Assembly: GCF_016894385.1 (NCBI RefSeq)
Contig: NZ_CP069812.1
Location: forward strand, 3,410,001-3,474,000
Reading direction: 5' to 3'
Source of the DNA: Cupriavidus oxalaticus
GTDB taxonomy: Bacteria > Pseudomonadota > Gammaproteobacteria > Burkholderiales > Burkholderiaceae
DNA: 64,000 nt
Of this stretch, positions 40,834-60,007 are shown in pieces. Under the pieces are notes generated by a model. It was not told the DNA's origin and ran no database searches. It was given only the letters and a program-made list of their open reading frames with translations. Position 1 is the stretch's first letter, and each line of letters begins with the position of its first letter. The position numbers and the translations under genes were made by a program.

Positions 40834-41736
40834 ATGATCATCGACACCAGCTGTTATCCGACGAACCTGGTGGACCTGGCCTGGCGCCATGACGGCGAGC
40901 CATTCACCGGCGAGCGCCTGATCCAGATGATGGACGGCCCGTTCACCATCAACGGCAAGCCGCGCCGCATCGACAAAGCCTTTATCCAGCCCCCGCAGGG
41001 CAACACCATCTATACCTTCACCGACGGCGTGAAATCCGGCAGCGAGTCGATCGACGCCTACATGGCCTACACGGTCGAGATGGTGCAGAAGTACCCGGAC
41101 CGCTTTATCGGCTGCTTCGTCTACAACCCGCGCTGCGGCGTCGAGAACGGCGTCAACGCGATGGAGCATTACGTGAAGAAGCTGGGCTTCAAGATGGTCC
41201 AGTTCCAGGCCAACATGCACGCTTACCGCCCCGATCGCGCGCTCGACTGGCTGCGCCCCGCGCTGCAGAAATGCGCCGAGCTGGGCGTGCTGGTCAAGCT
41301 GCATACCGGCGACGGTCCCTACAGCATCCCGACCGAATGGGTGCCGATGATCAAGGAGTTCCCGACGGTGAACTTCATCATGGCCCACTTCGGCGTGCAG
41401 ACCGGCGGCGTGTATTGCTTCGAGCCGTTCCAGATGGCGATGGACATGCCCAACGTGTACTGCGAATCGGGCTGGTGCCTGCAGTCGCGCATCGTCGAGT
41501 TCGCCAAGGTGCTGCCGAAACACAAGATCCTGTTCGGTTCCGACACGCCGCCCAACGAGCCCGGCATGTGGCTGCGCCTGCTGGAAGTGCTGTGCTTCGA
41601 GCCGCCACAGGGCCTGAACCTGGACGAAGACACGCTGGAGGACTACCTGGGCAACAACGTCGCCCGGATGATCGGCCTGGCGCCGACGCCGGTCCCGCGC
41701 ACGCTGGAAGAAGCGAAAGCGCGCCTGACCGCCTGA
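40834..41736 (+). CDS. ACMSD-type amidohydrolase paralogue lacking the HxH metal motif
   Basis: A 300-residue TIM-barrel protein of the ACMSD/2-hydroxybenzoate-decarboxylase type. It is closely similar along its whole length to its downstream neighbour, but the strand-1 motif is MIIDTSCYPTN instead of MIIDTHLHPTN, so both histidines of the catalytic HxH are replaced (Ser and Tyr). The strand-5 His (VKLHTGDGPYSIPT), the AHFGVQTGG block and the late Asp (FGSDTPPNEPGMW) remain. It may therefore be a non-catalytic partner forming a heteromer with the second protein, or use a different metal arrangement. First gene after the long leader; 40 bp separates the paralogues. Confidence 0.85.
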   Translation: MIIDTSCYPTNLVDLAWRHDGEPFTGERLIQMMDGPFTINGKPRRIDKAFIQPPQGNTIYTFTDGVKSGSESIDAYMAYTVEMVQKYPDRFIGCFVYNPRCGVENGVNAMEHYVKKLGFKMVQFQANMHAYRPDRALDWLRPALQKCAELGVLVKLHTGDGPYSIPTEWVPMIKEFPTVNFIMAHFGVQTGGVYCFEPFQMAMDMPNVYCESGWCLQSRIVEFAKVLPKHKILFGSDTPPNEPGMWLRLLEVLCFEPPQGLNLDEDTLEDYLGNNVARMIGLAPTPVPRTLEEAKARLTA

Positions 41737-41776
41737 CCCCGTCAGCGCCAACGACAACGGACTCCGGAGACAAGAG

Positions 41777-42691
41777 ATGATCATCGACACCCACCTGCAC
41801 CCCACCAACCTCGTCGACGAAGCCTGGCGCCACACCGGCGAGCCCTTCACCGGCGAGCGCCTGCTCAAGATGATGGACGGCCCCTACATGATCAACGGCA
41901 AGCCGCGCCGCATTGACATGGGCTTTATCCAGCCGCCGCCGGGCAACACCGGCTATCGCGACGGCAACCGCCGCGGCCGCGAAGGCATCCGCGACTATAT
42001 GGCCTACGTGGCCAGCCTGTGCCAGAAGTACCCCGACCGCTTTATCGGCAACTTCACCTTCAACCCGCGCTGGGGCCCGGAAGAAGGCGCGCAGGAGCTG
42101 GAATTCCATATCAGGGAGTACGGCTTCAAGATGCTCAAGCTGCATGCCAACATGCACGGCTACCGGCCCGACCGCGCGCTCGACTGGCTGCGCCCGGCGA
42201 TGAAGGTCTGCGCCAAATACAACATCGTGGTGCTGATCCATACCGGCGACGGCCCATACACGATCCCGACGATGTTTTACCCGGTGATCCGTGAATTCCC
42301 GATGGTCAATTTCATCATCGGGCACTTCGGCATCCAGACCGGCGGCAACTATTCGTTCGAGGCGTTCTGGATGGCGATGGACACGCCCAACGTGTATTGC
42401 GAATCGGGCTGGTGCTTCCAGTCGCGCATCGTCGAGTTCGCGCGCCAGTTGCCGCGCGACAAGATCGTGTTCGGCACCGACACGCCGCCCAACGAGCCGG
42501 GCATGTGGCTGCGCGAGCTGGAAATGCTGTGCGGCCCCGCGCCGCAGGGCATGGACCTCGACGAGGACGGGCTGGAGGACTACATGGGCAACAACATCGC
42601 CCGGCTGGTCGGCATCGAGCCGACCGCACCGCCCAAGACGCAGGCAGAGGCACAAGCGCGGCTGAAGGACACGTACGCCAGCACGCGCTAG
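41777..42691 (+). CDS. ACMSD-type amidohydrolase (intact metal site)
   Basis: A 304-residue amidohydrolase-2 family TIM barrel with a complete metal site: HxH in DTHLHPTNLVDEAW (residues 6-8), His in VLIHTGDGPYTIPT (about residue 158), the GHFGIQTGGNY block (about 183) and the catalytic Asp in FGTDTPPNEPGMW (about 236). The family includes ACMS decarboxylase, resorcylate decarboxylase, isoorotate decarboxylase and true hydrolases, so either C-C or C-N chemistry is possible. The ribosome site is CGGAGACAAGAG. It precedes the UbiD-type gene by 109 bp and looks like part of the same transcript. Confidence 0.9.
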   Translation: MIIDTHLHPTNLVDEAWRHTGEPFTGERLLKMMDGPYMINGKPRRIDMGFIQPPPGNTGYRDGNRRGREGIRDYMAYVASLCQKYPDRFIGNFTFNPRWGPEEGAQELEFHIREYGFKMLKLHANMHGYRPDRALDWLRPAMKVCAKYNIVVLIHTGDGPYTIPTMFYPVIREFPMVNFIIGHFGIQTGGNYSFEAFWMAMDTPNVYCESGWCFQSRIVEFARQLPRDKIVFGTDTPPNEPGMWLRELEMLCGPAPQGMDLDEDGLEDYMGNNIARLVGIEPTAPPKTQAEAQARLKDTYASTR

Positions 42692-42800
42692 GCCCTTAGC
42701 TGTTCCGCAGGCAGGCATGGCACGGCGGCCAGGGAATTGCCAATTTCCCGGCCGCCGGGGCAGCCTTCGCCCTGGCCGACCCTGACCACAGGAGCCGTTC

Positions 42801-44225
42801 ATGAACTCGCCTTCAGCGCCCTTCGCTTCCACGTCGGGGCGCAAGCCTTTCCACGACACCTCGCAGGATTTCCACCAGTTCCTGGCCGCATACCGCGAGG
42901 CCTTTACCGAAGACGTCCTGCATATCCGCGAGCCGGTGGGCGCCGACCAGGACGCCACCGCGCTGGTGTGGGCGCTGGCCGCGCAAGGCCGCCATCCCGC
43001 GCTGGTGCTCGACCATGTCGACGGACTCGGTGTCCCGCTCGTCACCAACCTGTTTGCCTCGCGCGAGCGCGTGGGCCGGATGCTCGGCGGCGTGCCGCCC
43101 GCCGGCATCCATGCCGAATACCAGGCACGCAGCCGCCGCATGGTGGCGCCGCGCGTGCAGGACAGCGGCGCGGTGACCGGGCATGTCGAGACCCGCAACA
43201 TCGACCTGCGCACCATTCCCGCGATCCGGCACTTCGCCAGCGATCGCGGCCCCTACATCACCAATGCGATCCTGATCGCCGAGGACCCCGATACCGGCAT
43301 CGGCAACGCCAGCTTCCATCGCTCGATGCTGCATTCGCCGACCGGGATCGCCACCAGCCTGCATTCGCGCGGCCACCTGTGGCGCATGCAACAGCGCGCG
43401 GCGCAATTGGGCAAGCCGCTGCCGGTGGCGATGGTGATCGGCGCGCATCCGCTGTTCATGCTCGCGGGCGCGGCGCGCCTGCCGTTTGGCGTGGATGAGC
43501 GCCACGTTGCCGGCGGATTGTTCGGTGCGCCGCTGGAGGTGGTGCGCACGCCGGGCTACGGCATCCTGGTGCCGGCGCATGCCGAGATCGTGCTGGAAGG
43601 CGTGATCGATCCCGAGGCGCGCGTCGACGAGGGGCCGTTCGGAGAGTTCACCGGCTATTCGTCGGACCGCTCCACCAACAACCTGCTGCACGTGGAAAGC
43701 GTGATGCGCCGTACCGACGCGTGGCTGGTCGACGTGGTCGGCGGCAACTCCGCCGAACACCTGAACCTGGGCCGCATCCCGCGCGAATCAGAGATGGTGG
43801 AGAAACTGAAGGAGCGCTTTCCCAGCGTCACCGCCGTGCATTACCCGAGTTCGGGCACGCACTTCCACGCCTACGTCGCGCTGCGCCAGAGCCGGCCCGG
43901 CGAAGCGCGGCAGGTCATGCTCGGGCTGCTCGGCTGGGACCCGTACCTGAAGACGGTGGTCGCGGTGGACGAGGACGTCGATATCACCCGCGACGAGGAC
44001 GTGTTGTGGGCGATGGCGACGCACCTGCAGCCGCATCTCGATGTGGTGGTGGTCGACGGGCTGCCTGGCAGCGCGCTCGATCCTTCCGCCTCCGGCGCGG
44101 GCACCACGTCGCGCATGGGGCTGGATGCCACGCGCGGCCCCGGCTTCGACGGCGTGCGTGCGCGCATCGACGATGCAGCGATGGCGCGCGCGACTGCGCT
44201 GCTGGCCCGCCTCGATGTTCCGTAA
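42801..44225 (+). CDS. UbiD-family prenylated-FMN decarboxylase
   Basis: A 474-residue (de)carboxylase of the UbiD superfamily, which uses prenylated FMN with Mn2+/K+. The conserved Arg region is GNASFHRSMLHSPTGIATS (about residue 170), and the Glu-Arg-Glu network is in the segment VDEGPFGEFTGYSS (about residue 275). Members decarboxylate aromatic, heteroaromatic or acrylic acids. It lies downstream of two amidohydrolases and upstream of an NCS2 permease; a dedicated UbiX (50656) in the same gene neighbourhood can supply its cofactor. ATG 42801 follows CACAGGAGCCGTTC. It is distinct from the ubiquinone UbiD in length and context. Confidence 0.9.
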   Translation: MNSPSAPFASTSGRKPFHDTSQDFHQFLAAYREAFTEDVLHIREPVGADQDATALVWALAAQGRHPALVLDHVDGLGVPLVTNLFASRERVGRMLGGVPPAGIHAEYQARSRRMVAPRVQDSGAVTGHVETRNIDLRTIPAIRHFASDRGPYITNAILIAEDPDTGIGNASFHRSMLHSPTGIATSLHSRGHLWRMQQRAAQLGKPLPVAMVIGAHPLFMLAGAARLPFGVDERHVAGGLFGAPLEVVRTPGYGILVPAHAEIVLEGVIDPEARVDEGPFGEFTGYSSDRSTNNLLHVESVMRRTDAWLVDVVGGNSAEHLNLGRIPRESEMVEKLKERFPSVTAVHYPSSGTHFHAYVALRQSRPGEARQVMLGLLGWDPYLKTVVAVDEDVDITRDEDVLWAMATHLQPHLDVVVVDGLPGSALDPSASGAGTTSRMGLDATRGPGFDGVRARIDDAAMARATALLARLDVP

Positions 44226-44244
44226 GGGAAAACCCCGTTGAACA

Positions 44245-44281
44245 GGCGGATTCATCGTTAAACCCGATCGATAAATCCGCC
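44245..44281. promoter_or_regulatory. Long inverted-repeat operator upstream of the first NCS2 permease
   Basis: GGCGGATTCATCG (44245-44257) and CGATAAATCCGCC (44269-44281) form an inverted repeat with 12 of 13 positions matching and an 11-bp spacer. A 33-bp core (44247-44279) recurs at 46835-46867 with 25 of 33 identical bases and the same half-site spacing. It is a likely LysR binding site. Confidence 0.7.
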
Positions 44282-44456
44282 TCATCAGTTGTACCCTCGC
44301 GCCGCGGCTGCCATGCTGGACACATATCCAGGACAGGCGCGGGCATCGCACGAGAAGGATGGCAACTGACCATCCCGCACAGGAAACTGCCGGCGACCTT
44401 GGCGACACGTAAGCGTCTCGGGCGCGACCGGCGTGCTACCGACCAAAGGAGACAGC

Positions 44457-45848
44457 ATGACCCCCACCCTGCCTGCGCATGGGGCTGCCCCCGTGCATCC
44501 CGTTGACGAAGTCCTGCCCGCGCCCCGCCTGCTTGCCCTGGGCCTGCAACACGTGCTGGTGATGTATGCCGGCGCCATCGCCGTGCCGATGATCATCGGC
44601 GGCGCGCTCAAGCTGCCCAAGGACCAGGTCGCCTTCCTGATCGCCGCCGACCTGTTCTGCTGCGGCCTGGTGACGATGATCCAGAGCATCGGCATCTGGA
44701 AGGTCGGCATCCGCCTGCCGGTGATGATGGGCGTGACCTTCACCGCGATCGCGCCGATCATCGCCACCGGCTCCAACCCGTCGCTGGGCCTGCCCGCCGT
44801 GTTCGGCGCGGTGATGGTGGCGGGCGTCTTCACCTATTTTGCCGCGCCCTATGTCGGCAAGATGGTGCGCTGGTTCCCGCCGGTCGTGACCGGTACCGTG
44901 GTGCTGGTGATCGGGATCTCGCTGATGCGCGTGGGCATCAACTGGGCGGCGGGTGGCAATCCGACCATCAATACGGCTGCGGGTCCGGTGCCCAATCCCA
45001 ACTTCGGCATGCCGGTGAATATCGCCATCGCCACCGCGGTGTTGTGCACGGTGCTGGCGCTGGTCGCCTTCGCGCGCGGCTTCCTGTGCAACGTGGCGGT
45101 GCTGATCGGCATCGCGGTCGGCTTCCTGATCGCGCTGGCACTGGGCAAGGTCAGTTTCGACGGGCTGCACAACGCGCACTGGGTCGAGTTCATCACGCCC
45201 TTCCACTTCGGCTGGCCGACCTTCGATGCGATGACCGCGATCACGCTGTGCGTGGTGATGATGGTGATCATGATCGAAGGCGTGGGCCAGTTCCTGGCGC
45301 TGGGCGAGATCGTCGGCCGGCCGGTCGAATCGGAGGACATCGCGCGCGGCCTGCGTGCAGATGGCGTGGGCGCGCTGGTGGGCGCGGTGTTCAACACCTT
45401 CACCTATACCTCCTACGCGCAGAACGTGGGGCTGGTGCAGGTGACGGGCGTGCGCAGCCGCTGGGTCTGCGCCACCGCCGGCGGCATCCTGATCGTGCTG
45501 GGCTGCCTGCCCAAACTGTCGTTCTTTGCCGCGTCGATCCCGCAGTACGTGCTCGGCGGCGCGGCGCTGGTGATGTTCGGCATGGTCGCGGCCACCGGCG
45601 TGCGCATCCTCGGCCATGTGGACTTTGTCGAGAACAAGAAGAACGCCTATATCGTCGCGGTCAGCGTGGCGCTGGGCATGATCCCGCTGGTGTCGGACAA
45701 GTTCTTCTCGCAGATGCCGGAGTTGCTGGCGAAGTTTTGCCAGAACGGCATCCTGCTCGGCACGCTGACGGCGGTGCTGCTGAACCTGCTGTTCAACGCG
45801 CGTTCACCGGCCCCCCAGGCCCACGGGCTCGCGAAGGAGCCGGCTTGA
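44457..45848 (+). CDS. NCS2-family nucleobase permease (xanthine/uracil type), copy 1
   Basis: A 463-residue membrane transporter with about 14 spans. The NAT signature of TM10 is present as QNVGLVQVTGVRSR (about residue 320), with the E-x(2)-G-x(2)-L-like motif in TM8 (IEGVGQFLALGEI, about residue 277). The family takes up uracil, xanthine, urate or related N-heterocycles with protons. ATG 44457 follows AAAGGAGACAGC. The upstream region carries a large inverted-repeat operator shared with the LysR/molybdenum-hydroxylase promoter. A paralogue with a similar N-terminus (HPVDEVLPA/HPVDQVLPA) lies at 53709. Confidence 0.93.
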   Translation: MTPTLPAHGAAPVHPVDEVLPAPRLLALGLQHVLVMYAGAIAVPMIIGGALKLPKDQVAFLIAADLFCCGLVTMIQSIGIWKVGIRLPVMMGVTFTAIAPIIATGSNPSLGLPAVFGAVMVAGVFTYFAAPYVGKMVRWFPPVVTGTVVLVIGISLMRVGINWAAGGNPTINTAAGPVPNPNFGMPVNIAIATAVLCTVLALVAFARGFLCNVAVLIGIAVGFLIALALGKVSFDGLHNAHWVEFITPFHFGWPTFDAMTAITLCVVMMVIMIEGVGQFLALGEIVGRPVESEDIARGLRADGVGALVGAVFNTFTYTSYAQNVGLVQVTGVRSRWVCATAGGILIVLGCLPKLSFFAASIPQYVLGGAALVMFGMVAATGVRILGHVDFVENKKNAYIVAVSVALGMIPLVSDKFFSQMPELLAKFCQNGILLGTLTAVLLNLLFNARSPAPQAHGLAKEPA

Positions 45849-45862
45849 AGGAATAGGCCTGC

Positions 45863-46777
45863 CTAGCCCAGCCTGCCCCGTTGCCGCATCAGCAGGTCAC
45901 GGAAGGCCTGCGCCGGCGGCGACAATGACCGGTCCGCGTGCACCAGCAGCGAGATCTCGCGGTGGATCACCGGATCGGTCGGCATTACCGTGGCGAGGCC
46001 AAGCGCCGAAGTCAGGCGCGTGACTGCCGCACTCATTACCGCGATCCCCAATCCGGCATCGACCATTCCCACCATTGTCAGCGGCAGCAGCACCTCATGC
46101 AGCCGCTGCAGCGTGATGCCGCGCGCGGCCAGCGCGGTGTCGAGGCAATCGCGGATCGGATTGCCCTTGTGCGGGCCAATCACCGGGATGCTGGCTAGGT
46201 CTTCCCAGCGCAGCGTCTTGCGCCGCAGCAGCGGATGGTCAGCCTGCATCACGATCACGAACGGGTCTTCCATCAGCCGGTGCGCACTCAGGTCTGGCTG
46301 GCCTTCGGGAATGGTGCCGATGCCGAAATCGACCTCGCCCGAGCTGACCATCTTGGGCACCTCATGCTCCGACACATCGTGCAGCTCCACCTTCACGCCC
46401 GGATGGCCGACGCAGAACTCGCGGATAAAGCGCGGCAGCATCAGCGCCGCCTGGATCGACGACGCCGCGATCGACACGCGCCCGCGCCCGAGCGTACGCA
46501 GCTCGCTGGAGTTCTCGATCACGCTGTCGATGTCCGCCACCGCCTTCTTGACCAGCGGCAGCAGCTCGGCGCCGGCCTGCGTGATGTGGAGCTGCCGCGT
46601 ATGCCGATCGAACAGTTTCAGCCCGAGATTGCCTTCCAGTTCATGGATCAGCGCGCTGACCGACGACTGCGACAAATCCAGCTTCTCCGCGGCGCGCGTG
46701 AAATGGCGCTCCTGCGCCACGGCAATGAACGCGCGCAGCTGGCGCAGCGACACGTTCATGTTGCTGATGTTGGGCAC
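45863..46777 (-). CDS. LysR-family regulator of the putative heterocycle cluster
   Basis: A 304-residue LysR regulator: helix-turn-helix RQLRAFIAVAQERHFTRAAE and SQSSVSALIHELEGNLGLKL (about residues 10-60), and an effector domain of the CynR/CbbR-like type. GTG 46777 is chosen because GGAGG lies eight bases upstream; ATG 46759, six residues in, is a less likely alternative. The gene is divergent from the molybdenum-hydroxylase operon and convergent with the first NCS2 permease gene, 14 bp away. Its own promoter region and the permease promoter share the same 33-bp operator, so it is the obvious candidate to bind both. Confidence 0.88.
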   Translation of the reverse strand: MPNISNMNVSLRQLRAFIAVAQERHFTRAAEKLDLSQSSVSALIHELEGNLGLKLFDRHTRQLHITQAGAELLPLVKKAVADIDSVIENSSELRTLGRGRVSIAASSIQAALMLPRFIREFCVGHPGVKVELHDVSEHEVPKMVSSGEVDFGIGTIPEGQPDLSAHRLMEDPFVIVMQADHPLLRRKTLRWEDLASIPVIGPHKGNPIRDCLDTALAARGITLQRLHEVLLPLTMVGMVDAGLGIAVMSAAVTRLTSALGLATVMPTDPVIHREISLLVHADRSLSPPAQAFRDLLMRQRGRLG

Positions 46778-46834
46778 GTTGTCTACCTCCGGGTTCCTGG
46801 CGTGCGCGCTCTTTTCGTTGAAACGGCGGCGCAT

Positions 46835-46867
46835 CGGATTCAGAGGGTAACACGATCAATTAATCCG
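46835..46867. promoter_or_regulatory. LysR-type operator between the regulator and the Mo-hydroxylase operon
   Basis: A 33-bp element with CGGATT (46835-46840) and AATCCG (46862-46867) as inverted half-sites 21 bp apart. It shares 25 of 33 bases and the exact half-site spacing with 44247-44279. It is situated 58 bp before the divergent regulator start and about 105 bp before the FAD-subunit ATG. Confidence 0.7.
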
Positions 46868-46971
46868 TTTCGCTACCTTTACCGATGGACGCCATCCGCC
46901 CATCATGGCCTCGGCGGTTCGCGCCGCGCATTACGTGCGGACGCCACCGGTGGCAAAGACCAGGAGGAGCG

Positions 46972-47855
46972 ATGAGAGCGTTTGAATACTTCGAACCGGC
47001 CACGCTGGCGGAAGCCTCGGCCCTGCTGCACCGGTGCGGGGGCAGGGCCAGCGTGCTGGCCGGCGGCACGGACCTGCTCGTGCAGATCAAGGAGTCGGTG
47101 CGCAAGCCCGAGCAGGTCATCAACATCAAGAAGATCCCGGGCATGGACGTGCTGACGTTCGACCCGGTCAACGGCCTGCGCATCGGCGCGCTGGTGACGA
47201 CGCGCGCGGTGGAGACTTCCGGCTTCGTGCAGCGCCACTACGCCAGCCTGGCGAAGGCGGTGACGGACTTTGCCTCGATCCAGGTGCGGCATCGCGCTAC
47301 CGTGGTCGGCAATGTGTGCCGCGCGTCGCCGTCGGCGGATTCGATCGCGCCACTGGTGGCGGATCGCGCTTCGGTGCACCTGTACGGCATGTCCGGTTCG
47401 CGCGAAGTGCGCGTGGAAGATTTCATCACCGGCGTCGGCAAGACCGCGATCGCGCCCGACGAGATCGTCACGCGCATCACCGTGCCGGCGCCGCGCGCCG
47501 ACGCTGGAACCGGCACTGCCAAGGTCTACCTGAAGCATGGTCGCCGCGTGCAGATGGAACTGGCCACGGTTGGCGTGGCGGTGTCGCTGACGGTCGACGG
47601 CGGCCGCTGCACCGACGTCGGCATCGTGCTCGCTGCCGTGGGGCCGACGCCGGTACGCGCGGTACACGCCGAAAACCTGCTGCGCGAGCACCCCATCACC
47701 GATGCGCTGATCCTGCAGGCCGCCCATGCCGCCATGCGCGACGCGCGCCCGATCAGCGACGTGCGCGCCAGCGAAGCCTATCGCCGGCAGATGGTCAGCG
47801 TGCTGACGCGCCGCGCCCTGGAACAAGCCCTGCAGCAAGCCCTGGAGGCCGCAAC

Positions 47856-47868
<13 letters not shown>
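46972..47868 (+). CDS. Molybdenum hydroxylase, FAD-binding medium subunit
   Basis: A 298-residue CoxM/PaoB-type flavoprotein. The FAD motif VLAGGTDLLVQIKESV lies near residue 30 and the second motif TVVGNVCRASPSADSIAPL near 110; the C-terminal CO-dehydrogenase flavoprotein domain follows. It passes electrons from the Fe-S subunit to the acceptor. ATG 46972 follows CAGGAGGAGCG. It overlaps the 2Fe-2S gene by 13 bp. First gene of the operon medium-small-large-UbiX. Confidence 0.92.
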
Positions 47869-48370
<502 letters not shown>

Positions 48371-48371
<1 letters not shown>

Positions 48372-50659
48372 TGACCCACGCCGTGATCGGACACAGCGTC
48401 AAGCGCACCGACCTGCTCGACAAGGTGACCGGCAATGCTAAGTACGTTGCCGACATGCCGTTCGCCGGGTTGCTGTTCGGAAAGCTCAAGCGTTGCGATG
48501 TCGCCCACGCGAAGATCCGCCGCATCGACACCACGCGCGCGCTGGCGCTGCCGGGCGTGAAGGCGGTGCTGACGCACGAGAACGTGCCGCGCGTGCTGCA
48601 TGCGGGCTCGCCGCACCCGCGCTCGGCGTCGGTGACGTGCGACCAGTACATCCTCGACGACAAGGTACGCTACTGGGGTGAAGGCGTCGCCGCGGTGGCC
48701 GCGATCAGCGAAGAGATCGCCGCTCGTGCAGTGGAGTTGATCGAGGTGGAATACGACACGCTGCCTGCGGTATTCACCACCGAGGATGCGGAGCGCTCCG
48801 ACGCGCCACGCATCCATGACCGCGAGCCGGGAGGCAACCTGGTGCTGCCGCCGGTCATCATCAGGCGCGGCGACGTCGAGGCCGGCTTCGCCGACGCCGA
48901 CTTCATCCTCGAAGGCGTCTACGAAGGCGGCCGCCCCACCCCCGCCTATATGGAGCCCAACGTCTGCACCTGCAGTTGGGACGGCAATGGCAACCTGACG
49001 GTATGGATTTCGACGCAGACCGCCTTCATGGTGCGCGGCATCATGGCCGAGGTGCTGGGCCTGCCGCTGCACAAGGTACGCGTACTGGTCGACCATATGG
49101 GCGGCGGCTTCGGCGCCAAGCAGGACCTGTTCCAGCATGAGTTCCTGTGCGCACTGCTGGCGCGCGAGACGCGCCGGCCGGTGCGGATGGAATACACGCG
49201 CGAGGAAACCTTCCTTGGTGGGCGCACGCGGCATCCCGCCAAGATCTGGCTGAAGCAGGGTTTCCGCAACGATGGCACGATCACCGCGCGCCAGGCAAAG
49301 GTGGTGTTCAACTCCGGTGCGTATGGCTCGCATGGCCCGGGCGTGACCAATGTCGGCACCGCGGCAATGGTGTCCCTGTACCGCTGCGACAACGTGCTGC
49401 TCGAAGGCCGCTGCGTCTACACCAACAGCCCGATCGCAGGCGCCTTTCGCGGCTATGGCGTGGTGCAGACCTACTACGCGCTCGACGTGCAGATGGACGA
49501 GGCCGCCGGACATCTCGGCATCGACCCCTCCGAACTGAAGCTGAAGAACGCCGTGCGCGAGGGCGATATCGCGCCGTCGAACCATCCGCTGATCGGGCAC
49601 GGGCTGGAGGCCTGCATCAAGAAAGGGATGGAGATCGTCGACTGGCCTGCACTGCGGAAGCGCGCACGCGATACCAGCGGAGCGATCCGCACCGGCTGGG
49701 GCCTTGGCTGCGAGATGCATGGCAGCAGCGCCTACCCCGGCATCAAGGAACAGGGCAACGCCATCATCAAGATGAACGAGGACGGCACGGTGGTACTGCT
49801 GACCGGCGCCGCCGGCCTGGGTACCGGCGCGCACACGGCGCTCGCGCAGATCGTTGCGGAGGAACTGACGCTGCCGTTCGAAGCAGTAGCAGTCGTGCAC
49901 GGCGATACCGACGTGGTACCGTGGGACATCGGCGCGTTTGCCAGCCACACCACCTACATGGTCGGCAAGGCAGCGCAGATGGCGGCGGACGAAATCAAGC
50001 GCCAGCTGTTCGGGCGCGCGGCAAAGCTGCTCGAATGCGAGCCGGACGCGCTGTCGCTGACCGCAGGCGTGATCGCCGTGCGCGACCGCGATGGCCCCAC
50101 GCTGACGGTGCGCGAGGCCGTGATGCCGCGCAAGGGCATTCCCGCCGCGCAACTGGTCGGGACCGCAACCTATCACCCGACCAAGTCGTACTCGTTCGCC
50201 GCGCACTTCGTCGAAGTCGCGGTCGACACCGAGACCGGCTTCATCACCGTGCAGCAGGTGGTGCCGGTGCATGACGTTGGCAAGGTGATCCATCCGGTGG
50301 CGGCAGCTGGACAGATCGAAGGCGGTATCCAGCAAGGCATCGGCCATACGCTGTACGAGGACTACCAGATCGACATGCGCACGGGCCGCTCGCTCAACGC
50401 CAACTTTGTCGACTACAAGATGCCGCTGGCGATGGACATGCCGGAAATCCGCACGGTGATCCTGGAAGCCGCGCCCGACCCCGGCGGCCCGTTCGGCGCC
50501 AAGGGCGTCGGCGAAGACCCGATCGTCGCGATCGGGCCCGCCATCGCCAATGCGGTGTTCGATGCCATCGGCGTGCGCTTCCGCCACTATCCGATCAAGC
50601 CCGAGCAAGTCTTGCAGGCACTGGCGGAGAAAGCCGCGAAGGAAGGCGTCACGCCATGA
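48371..50659 (+). CDS. Molybdenum hydroxylase, molybdopterin-binding large subunit (xanthine-dehydrogenase family)
   Basis: A 762-residue large subunit. It begins GHSVKRTDLLDKVTGNAKYV, the normal family N-terminus. Mo-pterin motifs are DHMGGGFGAKQD (about residue 237) and AFRGYGVVQTYYALD (about 357), and the catalytic Glu is in GAKGVGEDP near the C-terminus (about residue 715). Homologues hydroxylate xanthine, nicotinate, aromatic CoA esters, aldehydes or CO; this sequence lacks the CO-dehydrogenase Cys loop as far as I can see, but no substrate can be assigned. ATG 48371 is preferred to 48368 because AGGAGG ends four bases before it. It overlaps UbiX by 4 bp. Confidence 0.92.
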
Positions 50660-51252
50660 CCCGCACGCAACGGCTGGTGGTCGCGATCACCGGCGCCAGC
50701 GGCGCGGTCTATGGCGTGCGCCTGCTCCAGGCTTTAAAGGCGCTGGACGCCTGGGAGACCCACCTGGTCTGCTCGCCGTCCGGCCTGCTCACCGCGCACC
50801 ATGAACTGGGCCTGCAGCGCCCGCAGATCGAAGCCATGGCCGACGTCGTGCACAACGTGCGCGATATCGGCGCCACCATCGCCAGCGGGTCCTTCCGTTG
50901 CGACGGCATGATAGTGGCGCCGTGCTCGATGCGCACGCTCGCCGCGATCGCCACCGGCCTTGCCGACAACCTCGTCACCCGCGCCGCCGACGTGGTGCTC
51001 AAGGAGCGCCGCCGGCTGGTGCTGCTGGCGCGCGAGACGCCCTTCCATCTGGTCCACCTGCGCAACATGACCACGGTGACCGAGATGGGCGCCATCGTCC
51101 TGCCGCCGGTACCGGCGTTCTACGCGCATCCGCAGTCGGTCGAAGACATCGTCAACCACACCGTGGGGCGCGTGCTGGATCTGTTCGATGTGCCGCATGA
51201 CGGGCTGGTGGAGCGCTGGGAAGGCATGCGTCCCAGCGTCGCCGCCGGCTGA
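50656..51252 (+). CDS. Second UbiX-type flavin prenyltransferase, coupled to the Mo-hydroxylase operon
   Basis: A 198-residue UbiX paralogue, with VAITGASGAVYGVRLLQ at the N-terminus, ASGSFRCDGMIVAPCSMRTL (about residue 75) and LRNMTTVTEMGAIVLPPVP (about 137). It is highly similar to the copy at 13408 but lacks that copy's N-terminal extension. Translation is coupled to the Mo-hydroxylase large subunit (ATGA). Making prenylated FMN here is best explained by the UbiD-type gene at 42801. Confidence 0.93.
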   Translation: MTRTQRLVVAITGASGAVYGVRLLQALKALDAWETHLVCSPSGLLTAHHELGLQRPQIEAMADVVHNVRDIGATIASGSFRCDGMIVAPCSMRTLAAIATGLADNLVTRAADVVLKERRRLVLLARETPFHLVHLRNMTTVTEMGAIVLPPVPAFYAHPQSVEDIVNHTVGRVLDLFDVPHDGLVERWEGMRPSVAAG

Positions 51253-51308
51253 CCACAAGGTTCGCCCCGTCGCATGCGGGGATCGCAGTACCCCAATCAG
51301 GAGACAAC

Positions 51309-52388
51309 ATGAACGCAACTGCCGTCGCACAACAGCCCCCCGTCCCCGTGACCATCCTGACCGGCTTCCTTGGCGCGGGCAAGACGACGCTGCTCAACCA
51401 TATCCTGACGCAGAAGCACGGCCACCGCATCGCCGTGATCGAGAACGAGTTCGGCGAGGTCGATGTCGACTCGGACCTGGTGATGACGTCGGACGAAGAG
51501 ATCTACCAGATGACCAACGGCTGCCTCTGCTGCGTGGTCGATGTGCGCACCGACCTCGTGCGCATCCTGCAGAAGCTGCTGGAGCGGCCCGAGCGCTTTG
51601 ATCACATCCTGGTGGAGACCAGCGGGCTGGCCGATCCGACGCCGGTTGCGGCGACCTTCTTCATGGACAACGACGTCGCGAAGCAGGTCACACTGGACGG
51701 CATCCTGACGCTCGTCGACGCCGTGCATATCGAAGACCATCTCGACGACCCGCAACTGACCGGCTTCGACAACCAGGCCGTCGACCAGATCGTGGCAGCG
51801 GACCGCGTGATCCTGAACAAGACCGATCTCGTCGGCGCCGCGCGGCTGGATGCGCTGGAGGCGCGCATCCACAAGCTGAACGAAGGCGCGCGGATCCTGC
51901 GCTCCAACTTCGCGCAGGTTGACCTGACCAAGATCCTGGGCATCGGCGGCTTTACGCCGGGCACGGCGCAAATGGAAGCGCATGACGACCATCACGGCCA
52001 CGATCATCACGACCACGTTTGCGATGCGCATTGCGACCATGCGCACGATGACGACGCTCAGCATGGCCACCGCCACGACCCGTCAGTGACGTCCGTGTCG
52101 CTGGTGTTCGACCAGCCCTTCGACCGGCAGCGTCTCGAGCATGGCCTGAAGGCCTTGCTGGCCGCGCAGGGCGACGATGTGTTCCGGATGAAGGGGATCG
52201 TCGCGGTCGATGGCGACGCGCGCCGCTACGTGCTGCAGGCCGTGCACCGGCTGATGGATTTCCATCCGTCGGAGCCGTGGAATCACGACGCGCCGCAGAG
52301 CAAGTTCGTCTTCATCGGCCGCCATCTGGACAAGCTGCGGCTGCAAACACTGCTCAAGGTCTGCCTGCCCGTCGCGCAGGCCGCCTGA
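51309..52388 (+). CDS. COG0523 (CobW/G3E) GTPase with His-rich loop, putative metallochaperone
   Basis: A 359-residue G3E GTPase. The Walker A is GFLGAGKTTLLNHIL (about residue 18), the ENEFGEVDVDSD block follows, the metal motif CxCC is in TNGCLCCVVDVR (about residue 73), NKTD gives the base specificity (about residue 172), and the C-terminal CobW domain is present. A His/Asp-rich loop (residues about 222-258; DDHHGHDHHDH, HCDHAHDDD) suggests Zn2+ or Ni2+ handling. It lies 56 bp after ubiX in the same direction. It might deliver metal to the cluster's amidohydrolases. Confidence 0.93.
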   Translation: MNATAVAQQPPVPVTILTGFLGAGKTTLLNHILTQKHGHRIAVIENEFGEVDVDSDLVMTSDEEIYQMTNGCLCCVVDVRTDLVRILQKLLERPERFDHILVETSGLADPTPVAATFFMDNDVAKQVTLDGILTLVDAVHIEDHLDDPQLTGFDNQAVDQIVAADRVILNKTDLVGAARLDALEARIHKLNEGARILRSNFAQVDLTKILGIGGFTPGTAQMEAHDDHHGHDHHDHVCDAHCDHAHDDDAQHGHRHDPSVTSVSLVFDQPFDRQRLEHGLKALLAAQGDDVFRMKGIVAVDGDARRYVLQAVHRLMDFHPSEPWNHDAPQSKFVFIGRHLDKLRLQTLLKVCLPVAQAA

Positions 52389-52406
52389 GGCACCACCTGA
52401 GGCACC

Positions 52407-53375
52407 TCAGCCGCGCTGCGGGTCCTGCGATGCAGCCCGCAGCGTCTGCGACGGCAACTCGCCGAACTCACGCCGGTATTCCCGCGAGAACAGGCTCAGG
52501 TGCGTGAAGCCGTGCCGTAGCGCGATCGCGCTGACCGTCCCCTTCCCTTGCCTGGCCTGCTGCAGGTCCGCGCGCGCGCCGTGCAGGCGCAGCAGCCGCA
52601 GGTATTCCATCGGCGTGGTGTTCTTGCTCTTGCGGAAACCCAGCTGCAGCGTGCGCGCCGACACCCCGCAATGCGCCGCGATCTACTCCAGCGTCAGCGG
52701 CTGGTCGAGGTGCGAGCGCAGGTACGCGATCGCGCAGCGCACATAGTCCGGCAGCACCGCCTCGAAGCGGCGCGGCAGCATATTGCCGTCCGCGGCGAAG
52801 CGGTCGAGCAGCAGCGTCGACAGCACGATGCGCTCGATGCTGCCATCCACCGCCTGCACCGCCCCGCCTTCGCGCCGCACCCGCGTTTCCGCACGCAGGT
52901 AGCTGACCAACGCCTGCCAGCGTTCGGCACGGCCATCGTTGGCTACCGGTTGCATGTCGAATTCGATCGGCGCGGGCGGATCGAAGCTGAACTGCTGGCG
53001 GAACGCCTCTTCGATCAGCTGGCGGCGAACCACCACGCTGAAGCGTTCGCAGCCGGGGTCGAGCGACAGCGTGGTCGGCACGGTGGGCGAGAACACGAAG
53101 GTCGCGCCAGGCGGCATCTCGGTCGCACCGCGCGGCGTTTCCACGCGGCACGTGCCGGCGAGCACGGTCTGGATCACGAATTCGTCCTTGTTGGGCTGGG
53201 GCTCGATCTGCACGGCCTGGTTGTAGGCGATCGTGACCAGCGTCAGGTGGCCAATGGTGCAGGTGTCGATACGGGCATCGAGTGCGGCATCGTTCTCTGC
53301 GGCACGCAGGCGCGTGGGGCCGAACACGCGGCCGGAGAGCGACTGGATGCGATCGAGATCGCCGCTAGGTGTCAT
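52407..53375 (-). pseudogene. AraC-family regulator interrupted by an in-frame amber codon
   Basis: The frame runs 322 codons but has TAG at codon 231 (52683-52685). Before it is an AraC N-terminal sensing domain of about 200 residues (VIQTVLAGTCRVETPRGATE, about residue 70) ending in the first helix of the DNA-binding domain (AIAYLRSHLDQPLTLE). After it the same frame continues IAAHCGVSARTLQLGFRKSK and GTVSAIALRHGFTHLSLFSR, a complete second half of the AraC helix-turn-helix. Since relatives have LTLEQIA at this point, a single CAG to TAG change would explain the break. The truncated product would lack DNA binding. It is divergent from the second NCS2 permease, which it probably regulated. 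Confidence 0.85.
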
Positions 53376-53708
53376 GTGCGTTGGAAGACCGAGACATTAG
53401 GGATTCTTGCCTGCGGCCGCGGCGGGCTCACGCCACAAGACATGCCAATCCTATTTCCCGCACTCGCAACAAGCAACCCAAGGGAAACCCCTGATGCCTT
53501 ACCCACACCTTTTGCGCACCCCATTGCGGCCCGATGCCACCGTCTTCGCAATAACGCTATAACCGCATGCCGCGCCCCGCTACTGTGCAACCATGCGCCG
53601 GCCAATGCGTCGCGCATGGCACCGTGACGGACCGAGCCCGGCAACCAGAGACCGGGCCAGCCGCCGCCGGCATGGCGCAACTCCCACACGCGGCAGGAGA
53701 CACCCATC
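53376..53708. other. Intergenic region between the broken AraC gene and NCS2 copy 2
   Basis: 333 bp without a gene. A -10-like TATAAC (53558-53563) is seen about 145 bp before the permease ATG, but no -35 at suitable distance and no copy of the CGGATT/AATCCG operator. Confidence 0.5.
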
Positions 53709-55058
53709 ATGCAACCTGCGGTTCACCCCGTCGACCAGGTCCTGCCCGCGCGCGCCATGGCCTCGCTCGGCTTCCAGCACATGCTGGTCAGTTATCTCGG
53801 CGCCATCGCCGTGCCGATGATCGTGGCCGGCGCGCTCAAGATGACGCCGGCGCAAACCACCATGCTGATCAGCACCGCGCTGTTCACGTCAGGCATCGCC
53901 ACGCTGCTGCAGACCGTCGGCTTCTGGAAGTTCGGCGTGCGGCTGCCGCTGATGCAGGGCGTGGCGTTCAGTTCGGTCGGGCCCGTGATCGCCATCGGCA
54001 CCGATCCGTCGCTGGGCTTCAACGGCGTGTGCGGCGCGATCATCGCCGCGGGCGTGATCGCGATGTTCCTCGCGCCGATCATCGGCAAGCTCAAGCGCTT
54101 TTTCCCGCCCGTGGTCAGCGGCTGCACCATCACCGCGGTGGGACTGTCCTTGTTCCCGGTTTCGTTTCACTGGTTTGGAGGCGGAAGGGGAGCGCCGGAA
54201 TTCGGTGCTCCCGTCTTTTTCCTGGTCGCCTTCGGCGTGGTGGCACTGATCCTGTTCATCAATCGCCATGGCGGCGAGCTGGTGCGCAACCTGTCCGTGG
54301 TGATCGGCCTGCTGGTCGGCGGCGCGGTGGCCTGGATGCTGGGCATGGGCAACTTTGACGAAGTCGCGCGCGCGCCATGGTTCACCATGGTGACGCCGTT
54401 TGCCTTCGGCATGCCGGTCTTCGACATTGGCGCCATCGTCACCATGGTGATCGTGATGGTGGTGCAGATGGTGGAGTCGATGGGCCTGTTCGTCGCCGTG
54501 GGCGATATCGTCAAGCGCCCGCTGACCGAGCGGGATGCCACCAAGCGCCTGCGCGCCAACGGCCTGGCCAGCGCCATCGGCGGCATGTTCGCGGCGTTCC
54601 CGTACATCGCTTTCATGGAGAACGTGGGCCTGGTCATCGTCACCGGCGTGCGCAGCCGCTGGGTGGTGGCCACCTGTGGCGTGATGCTGTGCGCGGTGGC
54701 GCTGGTGCCCAAGATCGGCGCGCTGTTCGCGTCGATCCCGTCGGCGGCGCTGGGCGGTGCGACCATGGTGATGTTCGGGGTGGTGGTCGCGGCCGGCATC
54801 AAGACGCTGGGCGAGGTGGAGTATGAGCGCAACCCCAACAACCTGTCCATCGTCGCCATCACGCTCGGCTGCGCGATGATGCCGGTGATGTTGCCCACTA
54901 TGCTGGAGAAGCTGCCCGGCTTCCTGCAGCCATTCGTCCACAGCAGCGTGATCATCGCCTGCGTGGTGTCCGTGCTGCTCAACCTGATTCTCAACGGCGT
55001 GCCCGCCCGTGAAGCCGACGAGCTGCCCGCCAATGCCGATAACGTACAGGGGGTCTGA
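53709..55058 (+). CDS. NCS2-family nucleobase permease, copy 2
   Basis: A 449-residue paralogue of the permease at 44457. NAT signature ENVGLVIVTGVRSR (about residue 305) and the TM8 motif MVESMGLFVAVGDI (about residue 255). The TM8 Glu is kept but the residues around it differ from copy 1, so the two probably have different substrates. ATG 53709 follows CAGGAGACACCCATC. It lies 4 bp before the AtzB-like amidohydrolase gene, forming a permease-hydrolase operon. Confidence 0.93.
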   Translation: MQPAVHPVDQVLPARAMASLGFQHMLVSYLGAIAVPMIVAGALKMTPAQTTMLISTALFTSGIATLLQTVGFWKFGVRLPLMQGVAFSSVGPVIAIGTDPSLGFNGVCGAIIAAGVIAMFLAPIIGKLKRFFPPVVSGCTITAVGLSLFPVSFHWFGGGRGAPEFGAPVFFLVAFGVVALILFINRHGGELVRNLSVVIGLLVGGAVAWMLGMGNFDEVARAPWFTMVTPFAFGMPVFDIGAIVTMVIVMVVQMVESMGLFVAVGDIVKRPLTERDATKRLRANGLASAIGGMFAAFPYIAFMENVGLVIVTGVRSRWVVATCGVMLCAVALVPKIGALFASIPSAALGGATMVMFGVVVAAGIKTLGEVEYERNPNNLSIVAITLGCAMMPVMLPTMLEKLPGFLQPFVHSSVIIACVVSVLLNLILNGVPAREADELPANADNVQGV

Positions 55059-55062
55059 AAAC

Positions 55063-56463
55063 ATGGTGCAGAACACCACTTCCGTCTCGTATGCCGGCGC
55101 GCTGCTGATTCGCAATGCCGCCGCCGTGATGACCGGCCGCGCGGGCGACGCCGCCCGCGCCGGCGCCGCCGACATCCGCATCCGCGACGGACGCATCGCC
55201 GAAATCGGCGCCGCGCTGCCGCGCCACGACGGCGAGGATCTGATTGACGCGACCGGCTGCGTGGTCTACCCGGGCTGGGTCAACACACACCACCATCTGT
55301 TCCAGAACCTGCTGAAGGCCGTACCGAGCGGGATGAACGCGGGACTGGAGCAATGGCTGGCATCGGTCGCCTATCCGCGGCTGGCGCGGTTCACGCCGGA
55401 GATCTTCCGCACCGCGGTGCGCCTCGGCATGGCCGAACTGCTGCTGTCCGGCACCACCACCTGCGCCGACCATCACTACCTGTACCACCACGGCCACGGC
55501 GCGGAGACCGGCGACGTGCTGTTCGAGGTCGCGGAAGAACTCGGCATGCGGCTGGTGCTGTGCCGCGGCGGCGCGATCCAGTCCGCCTCCGATCACCCCG
55601 GCATGCGCGCCACCGCGCTGGTACCGGAGACGCTGGACGAGATGCTCACCGATATCGAGCGGCTGAAGGCGCGCTATCACGATGCCTCGGGCGATGGCCT
55701 GCGCCGCGTGGTGGTCGCACCGACCACGCCGACCTTCTCGCTGCCGCCGGTATGGCTGCGCGAGCTGGCGTCGTTCGCACGCGGGCTGGACCTGCGGCTG
55801 CATTCGCACCTGTCGGAAACGGACAACTATGTTCGCTTCTGCCGCGAGAAGTATCAATGCACGCCGGTGCAGTTTGTCGCCGACCATGACTGGCTCGGGC
55901 CCGACGTGTGGTTCGCGCACCTGGTCACGGTGAATCCGGAAGAGATCCGCATGCTGGCGGTGACCAATACCGGCATGGCGCACTGCCCGGTGAGCAATGC
56001 GCGGCTGGGCAGCGGCATCGCGCCGGTGCGGGCGATGGCGGACGCGGGTGTGCCGATCTCGCTGGGCGTGGATGGGGTGGCCTCGAATGAATCCGGCAGC
56101 ATGGTGCACGAGGCCAACTTCGCGTGGCTGGTGCACCGGGCGCTGGGCGGAGCGGCGCAAACCCGCGTGGAGGAAGTCATCCACTGGGGCACGGCTGGTG
56201 GGGCGCGGGTGCTGGGATTGCCCGGGATCGGCACGCTGGCGCCCGGGCAATCGGCCGACCTGGCGATCTATGACGTCAGCGGGCTGCGCTTCCATGGCTT
56301 CCATGACATCGGCACGGCGCCGGTGGCGGCGGGCGAGCCGACGCCGGTGCGCGACGTGCTGGTGCGGGGGCGGCAGGTGGTGCGCGATGGCGCGGTCGTC
56401 GGGCTGGATCTGGAGAAGCTGCGCCGGGAGGCGCGGGAGGCGCTGGCGACGCTGGTGGATTAG
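55063..56463 (+). CDS. Amidohydrolase of the AtzB / 8-oxoguanine deaminase group
   Basis: A 466-residue cytosine-deaminase-like amidohydrolase. HxH metal ligands are in VYPGWVNTHHHLFQNLLKA (about residue 73), the group signature is TTCADHHYLYHHG (about residue 133), a metal His is in LRLHSHLSETDNY (about 250), and the catalytic Asp is in SLGVDGVASNESG (about 330). Characterised relatives deaminate 8-oxoguanine or hydrolyse amino groups from s-triazines. The upstream nucleobase permease (4 bp away) supports a purine or related N-heterocycle. ATG 55063 is chosen over longer frames that run into the permease gene. Confidence 0.9.
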   Translation: MVQNTTSVSYAGALLIRNAAAVMTGRAGDAARAGAADIRIRDGRIAEIGAALPRHDGEDLIDATGCVVYPGWVNTHHHLFQNLLKAVPSGMNAGLEQWLASVAYPRLARFTPEIFRTAVRLGMAELLLSGTTTCADHHYLYHHGHGAETGDVLFEVAEELGMRLVLCRGGAIQSASDHPGMRATALVPETLDEMLTDIERLKARYHDASGDGLRRVVVAPTTPTFSLPPVWLRELASFARGLDLRLHSHLSETDNYVRFCREKYQCTPVQFVADHDWLGPDVWFAHLVTVNPEEIRMLAVTNTGMAHCPVSNARLGSGIAPVRAMADAGVPISLGVDGVASNESGSMVHEANFAWLVHRALGGAAQTRVEEVIHWGTAGGARVLGLPGIGTLAPGQSADLAIYDVSGLRFHGFHDIGTAPVAAGEPTPVRDVLVRGRQVVRDGAVVGLDLEKLRREAREALATLVD

Positions 56464-58942: not shown

Positions 58943-58987
58943 CATGATCTCCTCTTCCTCTTTCATGTCGGCTTGATGGCGCCTGCC

Positions 58988-60007
58988 TCAGACCAGCGGC
59001 CCGGTGTATTTTTCCAGCATCTCCCAGGCCTCGTCGCCAAACTTCCTGCGCCACTCGGCGTAAAAGCCCGCGTCCCGCAGCAGCTTGCGGAACGGCGCCG
59101 GATCCGGGCGGTTGAACGTGATGCCAAGCCGGGTCATCTCCGCCTGCGCTTCGACGTCGACCCGCGCGATATCCTCGCGCTGCTTCAGCGCCGCGGTGGT
59201 GAAGCGGGTCGTCAGCGAAGCCTGCACCTCGCGCGGCAGTGCCTTGAATTTTCTGGCATTGCCGAAGATAAAGTGGCCGTCCCAGGTATGCGCGGTCATC
59301 GAGCAGAATTTCTGCACCTCGTACAGCTTGCCGCTGCGGATCAGCGACAGCGGCGTCTCCTGGCCGTCCACCACGCGTGTCTGCAGCGCCGAATAGAGAT
59401 CGGCGAACGGGATGACCGTCGGCGCCGCGCCCAGCGTCCTGAACATCGAGACCCACAGCGGGATCGCCGGGACGCGGATCTTGAACCCCTTCAGGTCCGT
59501 CGGCGTGTTCACCGGGCGGCTAGCGGAAGTGATATTGCGATAGCCGTTGTCGAGACACTTCTCGAACACGTGCAGGTTCACCTTGCCCAGCGCGCTCCGG
59601 ACGTAAGCGCCCAGTCCGCCGTCCATCGCGGCCCACACCGTGGCGTAGTCCTTGAAGGCAAAGGCCACGCCATTGATGCTGGCGGCCGGCACACGTGTCT
59701 GCAAGTTGGTGCTGGCGGTCGACATGAAGTCGATGGCGCCGGCGAGGACCTGGGAAACCATGTCTGGCTCGCTGCCCAGTTGGCTATTGGGATAGACCTG
59801 CAGGTCGACCTTGCCGCCGGTGTCCTGACGAATGGCCTCGGCGGCCTCCTTGATGCGCAGCGTGCCCGGATGGTCGGCCGGAAATGCCGTGCCGTACTTC
59901 AGCTTGATGGTGGCGCTCTGGGCGAACGCGTTGCGCCCGGGCAATGCCAGAACCAGTCCGCCGGCGGCGAGTGCGCCGAACTGGCGGCGAGTGAACCGAT
60001 TGGTCAT
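58988..60007 (-). CDS. TRAP transporter solute-binding protein (DctP)
   Basis: A 339-residue periplasmic receptor. The N-terminus MTNRFTRRQFGALAAGGLVLA has a twin-Arg pattern (TRRQF), so export by Tat is possible. The ligand-binding Arg is in FKIRVPAIPLWVSMF (about residue 167) and the conserved VVDGQETPLSLI follows near 205. It belongs to the DctP family whose members bind dicarboxylates, sialic acid or hexuronates. It is 45 bp from the fused DctQM gene and follows the mannitol-dehydrogenase-family gene by about 20 bp, so the operon probably takes up a sugar acid. Confidence 0.93.
   Translation of the reverse strand: MTNRFTRRQFGALAAGGLVLALPGRNAFAQSATIKLKYGTAFPADHPGTLRIKEAAEAIRQDTGGKVDLQVYPNSQLGSEPDMVSQVLAGAIDFMSTASTNLQTRVPAASINGVAFAFKDYATVWAAMDGGLGAYVRSALGKVNLHVFEKCLDNGYRNITSASRPVNTPTDLKGFKIRVPAIPLWVSMFRTLGAAPTVIPFADLYSALQTRVVDGQETPLSLIRSGKLYEVQKFCSMTAHTWDGHFIFGNARKFKALPREVQASLTTRFTTAALKQREDIARVDVEAQAEMTRLGITFNRPDPAPFRKLLRDAGFYAEWRRKFGDEAWEMLEKYTGPLV

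Follow-up and report, generated by a model that had tools for sequence, protein, structure and literature searches.

We analysed a 64,000-nucleotide stretch of the Cupriavidus oxalaticus genome (the window, with a GC content of 68%, in a genome of two contigs and 6.69 Mb) and focus here on a block of genes at positions 40834 to 56463, which we read tentatively as an operon for the catabolism of pteridines. A preliminary description of the window had proposed that the block encodes a system for the breakdown of an N-heteroaromatic compound. Every family that it named is indeed found where it had been placed: two PF04909 amidohydrolases (here AH2a and AH2b), UbiD, UbiX, a molybdenum (Mo) hydroxylase, two NCS2 permeases, a COG0402 aminohydrolase (here IXPD), a COG0523 GTPase, a LysR-family regulator and an AraC-type regulator. 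UbiD enzymes depend on prenylated flavin mononucleotide (prFMN), and one Mo-hydroxylase subunit is of the type that binds flavin adenine dinucleotide (FAD). The genes are as follows.

40834-41736, + strand: AH2a, PF04909 amidohydrolase fold (122 bits) with the HxH motif changed to SxY; presumed non-catalytic partner of AH2b
41777-42691, + strand: AH2b, PF04909, which keeps H6/H8/H155/H183/D235; presumably the catalytic subunit that opens or contracts a pyrazine ring
42801-44225, + strand: UbiD-family prFMN decarboxylase (PF01977/PF20695/PF20696); presumed substrate xanthine-8-carboxylate (or lumazine-6-carboxylate)
44433-45848, + strand: NCS2a, nucleobase permease of the xanthine-permease subfamily (TIGR03173, pbuX, 539.9 bits, cut-off 414.15)
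45863-46834, - strand: LysR-family regulator (PF03466/PF00126)
46885-47868, + strand: Mo hydroxylase, FAD subunit (PF00941/PF03450); start codon uncertain
47865-48371, + strand: Mo hydroxylase, [2Fe-2S] subunit (PF01799/PF00111); start codon uncertain
48374-50659, + strand: Mo hydroxylase, large subunit (PF02738/PF20256/PF01315); start codon uncertain, with a longer open reading frame from 48140
50656-51252, + strand: UbiX flavin prenyltransferase, for prFMN supply (NF004685, 289.1 bits, cut-off 188)
51309-52388, + strand: COG0523/CobW GTPase (PF02492/PF07683); presumed metal chaperone for the amidohydrolases
52407-53375, - strand: AraC-type regulator (PF14525); frame broken by one in-frame stop
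53709-55058, + strand: NCS2b, nucleobase permease (TIGR03173, 470.3 bits, cut-off 414.15)
55009-56463, + strand: IXPD, COG0402 aminohydrolase resembling isoxanthopterin/pterin deaminases; likely start near 55066; matches 2paj

The block is one conserved unit. Scanning genome contigs with AH2b gave 246 relatives, and we kept the best 80 with up to 10 kb on each side. These loci hold the closest relatives of AH2b and come mostly from Burkholderiales, but also from Pseudomonas, Marinobacterium, Crenobacter and Rhodoplanes. AH2a, AH2b and UbiD occur together in all 80 of them, in several gene orders (in L108 the contig start leaves only the last part of AH2a). Around this core the CobW-type GTPase is found in 76 loci, UbiX in 75, an NCS2 permease in 67, IXPD in 55 and a match to any Mo-hydroxylase subunit in 71, and the usual order is AH2a-AH2b-UbiD-UbiX-CobW-NCS2-IXPD. 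Six of the 80 loci, from Janthinobacterium, Massilia and relatives, are arranged differently, and instead of NCS2 they carry an ABC transporter whose binding protein is of the BMP/PnrA type, a replacement that fits a purine-like solute. Where IXPD is missing the cause is partly technical, as 16 loci (L040-L055) stop short of the position it has in the window and four others (L081, L101, L117 and L118) are truncated or of short length. The AH2a/AH2b/UbiD core and most of the other genes also lie on plasmids or megaplasmids of Sinorhizobium, Ensifer, Paracoccus, Ponticoccus and Caballeronia; no NCS2 gene was seen in the Ponticoccus plasmid version. The plasmid collection has 182 AH2 places on 91 records, with two apiece in each of the 40 records listed. 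The neighbourhoods thus bear out the proposal of a single N-heteroaromatic system, since UbiD and the tandem amidohydrolases remain neighbours in Beta-, Gamma- and Alphaproteobacteria, and in most cases Mo-hydroxylase and permease genes are close by.

A gene resembling arylmalonate decarboxylase or Asp/Glu racemase adjoins the cluster in 24 of the 80 loci (for example L096 17147-17878 and L109 16942-17673); we left it out of the model, since neither the block in the window nor most of the loci contain it. On pSymB of Sinorhizobium meliloti ABS7 the UbiX match beside the AH2/UbiD set consists of two overlapping stretches in different frames (L123 18513-19080), which suggests that this ubiX is broken. 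A study of Sinorhizobium (PMC5596199) deals with purine genes that are not shown to be the AH2/UbiD cluster.

The distribution of the unit among genomes gives a second view of its coherence. It is rare: in samples of 300 genomes from the order and 398 from the phylum, four carry it in each case (the Cupriavidus oxalaticus genome itself counted in both). In the genus it is present in 29 of 60 genomes. The genus counts share ancestry and do not represent independent events, and Fisher p-values, which take no account of this, were not treated as probabilities. The IXPD clade (at least 82% identity) is found in exactly the same 29 genomes as AH2a and AH2b and is missing from the other 31, save for a remnant in one (G300). 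In 26 of the 29, a single contig carries both AH2b and IXPD, at a distance of 7.0-17.1 kb; in the other three, which are draft assemblies, they are on separate contigs. The large subunit of the Mo hydroxylase is present in 25 of the 29 AH2-positive genomes and in 1 of the 31 negative ones (G337). A paralogue of IXPD (53-55% identity) occurs in 11 genomes, five of them AH2-positive, with no link to AH2. In two genomes, G313 and G337, an IXPD paralogue sits beside a Mo hydroxylase of the same type and a porin, without AH2 or UbiD (L133 4027-13291 and L134 2162-11426, the deaminase match in L134 being split over frames). A Pfam scan, made on L133 only, places ABC transporter genes in this second module (an NMT1-like binding protein, an ATPase and a permease). 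Such an arrangement ties deamination to hydroxylation, and suggests two modules, one of deaminase plus Mo hydroxylase and one of AH2a, AH2b and UbiD, as consecutive steps would give. The remnant in G300 consists of short AH2, NCS2b and IXPD fragments side by side (L135 5417-6581), as if the cluster had undergone an internal deletion.

That the substrate is a pteridine is well supported by the relationships of IXPD. Its closest solved relative is 2paj (E 3.4e-137; 52.8% identity over 451 aligned residues), followed by 3hpa (E 3.7e-85) and 7ww2 (E 6.1e-82). We take 2paj to be Sgx9339a, the isoxanthopterin deaminase of Hall et al. (2010), which came from an environmental sample. Two adjacent threonines (T220/T221) are present in 56 of 56 aligned rows, namely the window, 2paj and 54 loci with the partial locus L059 left out; the motif reads APTT here versus APCS in 3hpa and 7ww2. 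Presumably these threonines contact N5 and the C7 oxygen of the pteridine. The preliminary description had called the protein AtzB/8-oxoguanine-deaminase-like, a label that needs correction: the AtzB/8-oxoguanine deaminase entry 7ww2 comes third, and the NCBIfam equivalog cut-off for 8-oxoguanine deaminase (PRK08203) is missed with 432.6 against 532 bits. The protein passes NF009059 of the same collection, named 'amidohydrolase family protein', with 792 bits against a cut-off of 543. Isoorotate, s-triazines and pyridine- or pyrrole-carboxylates, which had been suggested as substrates of the block, were dropped in favour of pteridines, because the deaminase is far closer to 2paj than to AtzB- or cytosine-type enzymes. 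According to a review, amidohydrolases from the Sargasso Sea deaminate both isoxanthopterin and pterin-6-carboxylate (PMC5270733).

The Mo hydroxylase of the block is not a xanthine dehydrogenase by any of the equivalog cut-offs listed, which it fails in each case (NF043082, 660.2 against 780 bits; TIGR02965, 314.6 against 849.5; NF043083, 215.7 against 310; NF043084, 185.5 against 217). The genome encodes a true xanthine dehydrogenase at another place (1367.6 bits, cut-off 849.5; C2:935-954 kb, locus L132), next to genes for XdhC, a guanine deaminase and a xanthine permease and not far from a transthyretin-family gene of the hydroxyisourate hydrolase type, so the enzyme in the block is a different one. 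Xanthine and guanine catabolism was rejected as the function of the block on account of this separate locus and the failed cut-offs. Xanthine oxidase is described as converting lumazine to violapterin (PMC9966888), and thus pteridine hydroxylation is normal chemistry for the family. In clusters of the Burkholderia/Pseudomonas type the Mo hydroxylase has two subunits, and the N-terminus of the large one looks twin-arginine-like by eye. A group II intron maturase and an IS110-family transposase (5413-6954 and 8079-9152) lie near the guanine deaminase and xanthine dehydrogenase genes of L132.

The two amidohydrolases differ in their active sites. In AH2b the residues H6, H8, H155, H183 and D235 are kept in 81 of 81 rows, and 75% of positions are invariant at the 98% level; we take the HxH, the two further histidines and the aspartate to be its metal and catalytic residues. 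In 80 of 81 rows AH2a has S6 and Y8 instead of HxH, and glutamines at the two positions where AH2b has Lys121 and His123. The one remaining row comes from L108, where AH2a is truncated by the contig and the aligned protein is AH2b. H157, H185 and D237 are still present in AH2a. AH2a has lost its metal site and AH2b has retained its active site. Of the two ACMSD-type hydrolases first described, both belong to PF04909 and only AH2b has the intact motif, AH2a being without the HxH metal ligands. Among the matches listed (120 of 299 database relatives), 72 have HxH, 44 have SxY, two have AxH and two are without the motif region, and relatives occur also in actinobacterial and chloroflexotal sequences. 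AH2a is retained in every locus all the same, and the two are apparently an obligate pair of a 'live' and a 'dead' amidohydrolase. A TIM barrel is predicted for both, with a predicted local distance difference test score (pLDDT) of 82.7 for AH2a and 86.6 for AH2b. The folds nearest to the models are PF04909 decarboxylases and hydrolases, a result that supports the fold only. Sequence profiles barely reach solved proteins (best E ~1e-4), which implies that there is no solved structure for any close member of this subfamily. In ACMSD, essential arginines come from the adjacent subunit (title of PDB 4ifk). Together with the subunit pair of AibH1H2, this makes it plausible that the metal-less AH2a completes the active site of AH2b, in a heteromer that the two would form.

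The UbiD protein contains R174, E277 and E282, presumably the Arg-Glu-Glu triad, and UbiD domains and UbiX are both available in the block. Its closest solved relatives are 6h6x/6h6v (PtHmfF) and 7p9q (AnInD), enzymes whose substrates are furan and indole carboxylates. According to PMC8988006, 6H6V is PtHmfF, AnInD is grouped with HmfF, and AnInD is inactive on pyrrole-2-carboxylate and on the fused pyrazine carboxylate quinoxaline-2-carboxylate. Given the narrow range of AnInD, its inactivity on these two compounds is weak evidence. A second UbiX-like gene lies in the window at 13408-14058 on the + strand (PF02441, 148.5 bits) and is perhaps a housekeeping copy.

Taken together, we interpret the block as a pteridine-catabolic operon that would run from isoxanthopterin through 7-oxolumazine, tetraoxypteridine and xanthine-8-carboxylate to xanthine, and we give this route and its order of steps a probability of roughly 0.47. 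Pterins of the isoxanthopterin type would be imported by the NCS2 permeases, or elsewhere by the BMP-type ABC transporter. IXPD would strip the 2-amino group to give 7-oxolumazine (violapterin), and the Mo hydroxylase (46885-50659) would add a second oxygen to the pyrazine ring to give 2,4,6,7-tetraoxypteridine. The metal site of AH2b, acting within the AH2a/AH2b pair, could then open the amide of the pyrazinedione, and the ring would reclose as an imidazole to yield xanthine-8-carboxylate, the reaction of Enzyme Commission number EC 5.5.1.3. Such a contraction would be a net isomerisation, because the water taken up in hydrolysing the amide would be released again when the amino group forms the imidazole ring. 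UbiD, supplied with prFMN by the UbiX of the block, would convert xanthine-8-carboxylate to xanthine, which the separate xanthine dehydrogenase could oxidise, and the COG0523 GTPase may supply the metal. The chemistry first suggested (hydroxylation, decarboxylation and ring hydrolysis) looks right in its classes. A carboxylate on an N-containing ring had been suggested as the substrate; that part is modified, since the carboxylate for UbiD need not be the starting compound and the best-fitting route makes it by ring contraction. The earlier interpretation was thus right in kind and is in part supported, now sharpened to pteridines.

There is a biochemical precedent for this route. McNutt, and Damle and McNutt, reportedly found in the 1960s that extracts of Alcaligenes faecalis convert isoxanthopterin to 7-oxolumazine, tetraoxypteridine and xanthine-8-carboxylate. 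We take EC 5.5.1.3 to be tetrahydroxypteridine cycloisomerase, the last step of the Alcaligenes route to xanthine-8-carboxylate, and we know of no sequence or genes for it. The EC number stands in a 2007 review among 228 orphan activities, with the rank 'difficult' (PMC1940265). The narrower claim, that AH2a and AH2b are EC 5.5.1.3 and contract a pteridine to a purine as an obligate heteromer in which one subunit bears metal and the other does not, with UbiD as the xanthine-8-carboxylate decarboxylase, is a real possibility that we put forward as tentative. None of the matches listed in the open-licence literature describes a gene set for bacterial pterin breakdown, and this absence is not proof as subscription papers are mostly outside that collection. 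Xanthine-8-carboxylate and tetrahydroxypteridine are found there in one paper, in a metabolomics table.

There are several observations that weigh against this interpretation. Nine of the 80 loci have no Mo-hydroxylase match (L051, L056, L058, L060, L074, L081, L089, L103 and L106), and two of these, L103 and L106, are untruncated and outside Cupriavidus. Likewise, 4 of the 29 AH2-positive genomes of the genus are without a Mo hydroxylase of the block type, and none is annotated in the 31 kb viewed of Paracoccus TOH (L139). There is no IXPD within 10 kb in the full-length loci L057, L062, L064 and L067, nor in L115, where the UbiD is also distant (43% identity) and 2.7 kb off. Some copies of IXPD may be missed, since L059, which has a similar arrangement, carries it right at the limit of the 10 kb. 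The alphaproteobacterial clusters have another COG0402 deaminase family in the slot of IXPD, with the cytosine deaminase 4r7w as nearest relative; the five members compared are 63-76% identical to one another. Arad3529, of the same broad type, is said to be a pterin deaminase. Finally, solved relatives in PF04909 are mostly decarboxylases and not cyclic-amide hydrolases.

A different pteridine route would start from pterin-6-carboxylate, a product of folate breakdown. The deaminase would give lumazine-6-carboxylate, the Mo hydroxylase would oxidise C7, UbiD would remove the 6-carboxylate, and AH2a/AH2b would hydrolyse the 7-oxo lactam of violapterin to pyrimidines with no purine formed. This scheme asks for a single C7 hydroxylation, of the kind that xanthine oxidase performs on lumazine (PMC9966888). 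It also keeps AH2 and UbiD as neighbouring steps, matching their inseparability, and agrees with the activity on both isoxanthopterin and pterin-6-carboxylate that the review ascribes to the Hall 2010 enzymes (PMC5270733). However, the nearest characterised relatives of UbiD use furan or indole carboxylates, the failure of AnInD on quinoxaline-2-carboxylate and pyrrole-2-carboxylate speaks against it (weakly, from one narrow enzyme; PMC8988006), and the scheme makes no use of the ring contraction for which Alcaligenes offers a precedent. We consider it unlikely but worth keeping in mind. With the two pteridine routes taken together, a pteridine of one kind or the other is the likely substrate of the block.

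The block could also act on some other N-heterocycle, a non-pterin compound of purine, pyrimidine or triazine type, if the deaminase had drifted from its pterin-specific kin. IXPD is only 53% identical to 2paj, the xanthine-type NCS2 permeases and the BMP ABC transporters are not specific to pterins, and the alphaproteobacterial deaminase resembles cytosine deaminase. The fixed Thr-Thr pair in all 56 sequences, 2paj included, and the exact tracking of AH2 by the deaminase within the genus argue otherwise, and we regard such a substrate as unlikely. Two decarboxylases in series, AH2b of the ACMSD/IDCase/resorcylate type and a UbiD that removes a second carboxylate with the ring cleaved elsewhere, would agree with the closest PF04909 proteins by profile and fold, which are mostly decarboxylases. 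Yet the profile similarity is weak, a common fold proves no function, and no further ring-cleaving enzyme appears among the gene clusters found in at least 18 of the 80 loci, the rarer neighbours not all being annotated; we think this scheme quite improbable. An O2-dependent hydroxylase is more improbable still. Its model would be AibH1H2 (PDB 8ful), which we take to be a heteromeric monooxygenase of paired amidohydrolase-fold subunits with a dinuclear oxygen-activating site and redox partners. The fold and the pairing of two subunits are like those of AH2a/AH2b, but no candidate redox partner is seen in the block. AibH1H2 is not among the 50 matches listed in the AH2a fold search. That the genes are unrelated units brought together by chance in this genome is contradicted by the neighbourhood data and can practically be discarded: NCS2a, the LysR gene and the Mo genes separate UbiD from UbiX only in loci of the Cupriavidus type (L040-L055), but the unit is conserved across classes in differing orders and its members are co-present and co-absent within the genus.

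Two regulators had been named, and both the LysR-family gene and the AraC-type gene are present. In the AraC-type gene an in-frame stop cuts the ligand-binding domain off from the helix-turn-helix. In the Cupriavidus gilardii locus L056 the homologue is an open frame of 397 amino acids, and the stop could reflect gene decay or a sequencing error. Downstream of the block, a TRAP transporter, a mannitol-dehydrogenase-family gene and a D-mannonate dehydratase (57047-62971) probably form a separate locus for sugar-acid utilisation.

Pterins are widespread, as products of folate breakdown, as insect pigments and in urine. If the isoxanthopterin route is true, AH2a/AH2b, UbiD, the deaminase and the Mo hydroxylase would be the genetic basis of the bacterial catabolism of pterins to purines. 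A purine-type substrate would be added to the UbiD family, and a UbiD that decarboxylates xanthine-8-carboxylate would be, to our knowledge, the first prFMN enzyme acting on a purine. It would also be a case of an amidohydrolase pair that is retained with one partner stripped of its metal site. The block would then offer candidate genes for EC 5.5.1.3, an enzyme that is listed as an orphan (PMC1940265).

Comparison with known systems helps to place the block. The furoate (hmf) clusters have UbiD/UbiX and a Mo hydroxylase in common with it. They depend on a coenzyme A (CoA) ligase; as the preliminary description had observed, this is missing here, with no CoA ligase or AMP-binding domain among the block proteins scanned against Pfam, and for this reason a furoate pathway was rejected. 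The block has amidohydrolases, a deaminase and nucleobase permeases instead. Its UbiD shares the triad residues with the HmfF/AnInD branch, but stands beside AH2a and AH2b and not in a furoyl-CoA pathway. The xanthine dehydrogenase/guanine deaminase locus L132 has the same broad families (Mo hydroxylase, COG0402 deaminase and NCS2 permease), whereas its enzymes pass the equivalog cut-offs for xanthine dehydrogenase and guanine deaminase and the block proteins do not. IXPD resembles Sgx9339a in sequence (52.8% identity) and in the Thr-Thr pair; in the block, the deaminase sits in what we read as a catabolic operon. For the isoxanthopterin catabolism of Alcaligenes faecalis no genes are known to us, and its assignment to the block is inferred. 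For each of its steps the block has a suitable enzyme class, both belong to a Burkholderiales setting, and the xanthine produced would feed the xanthine dehydrogenase present in this genome.

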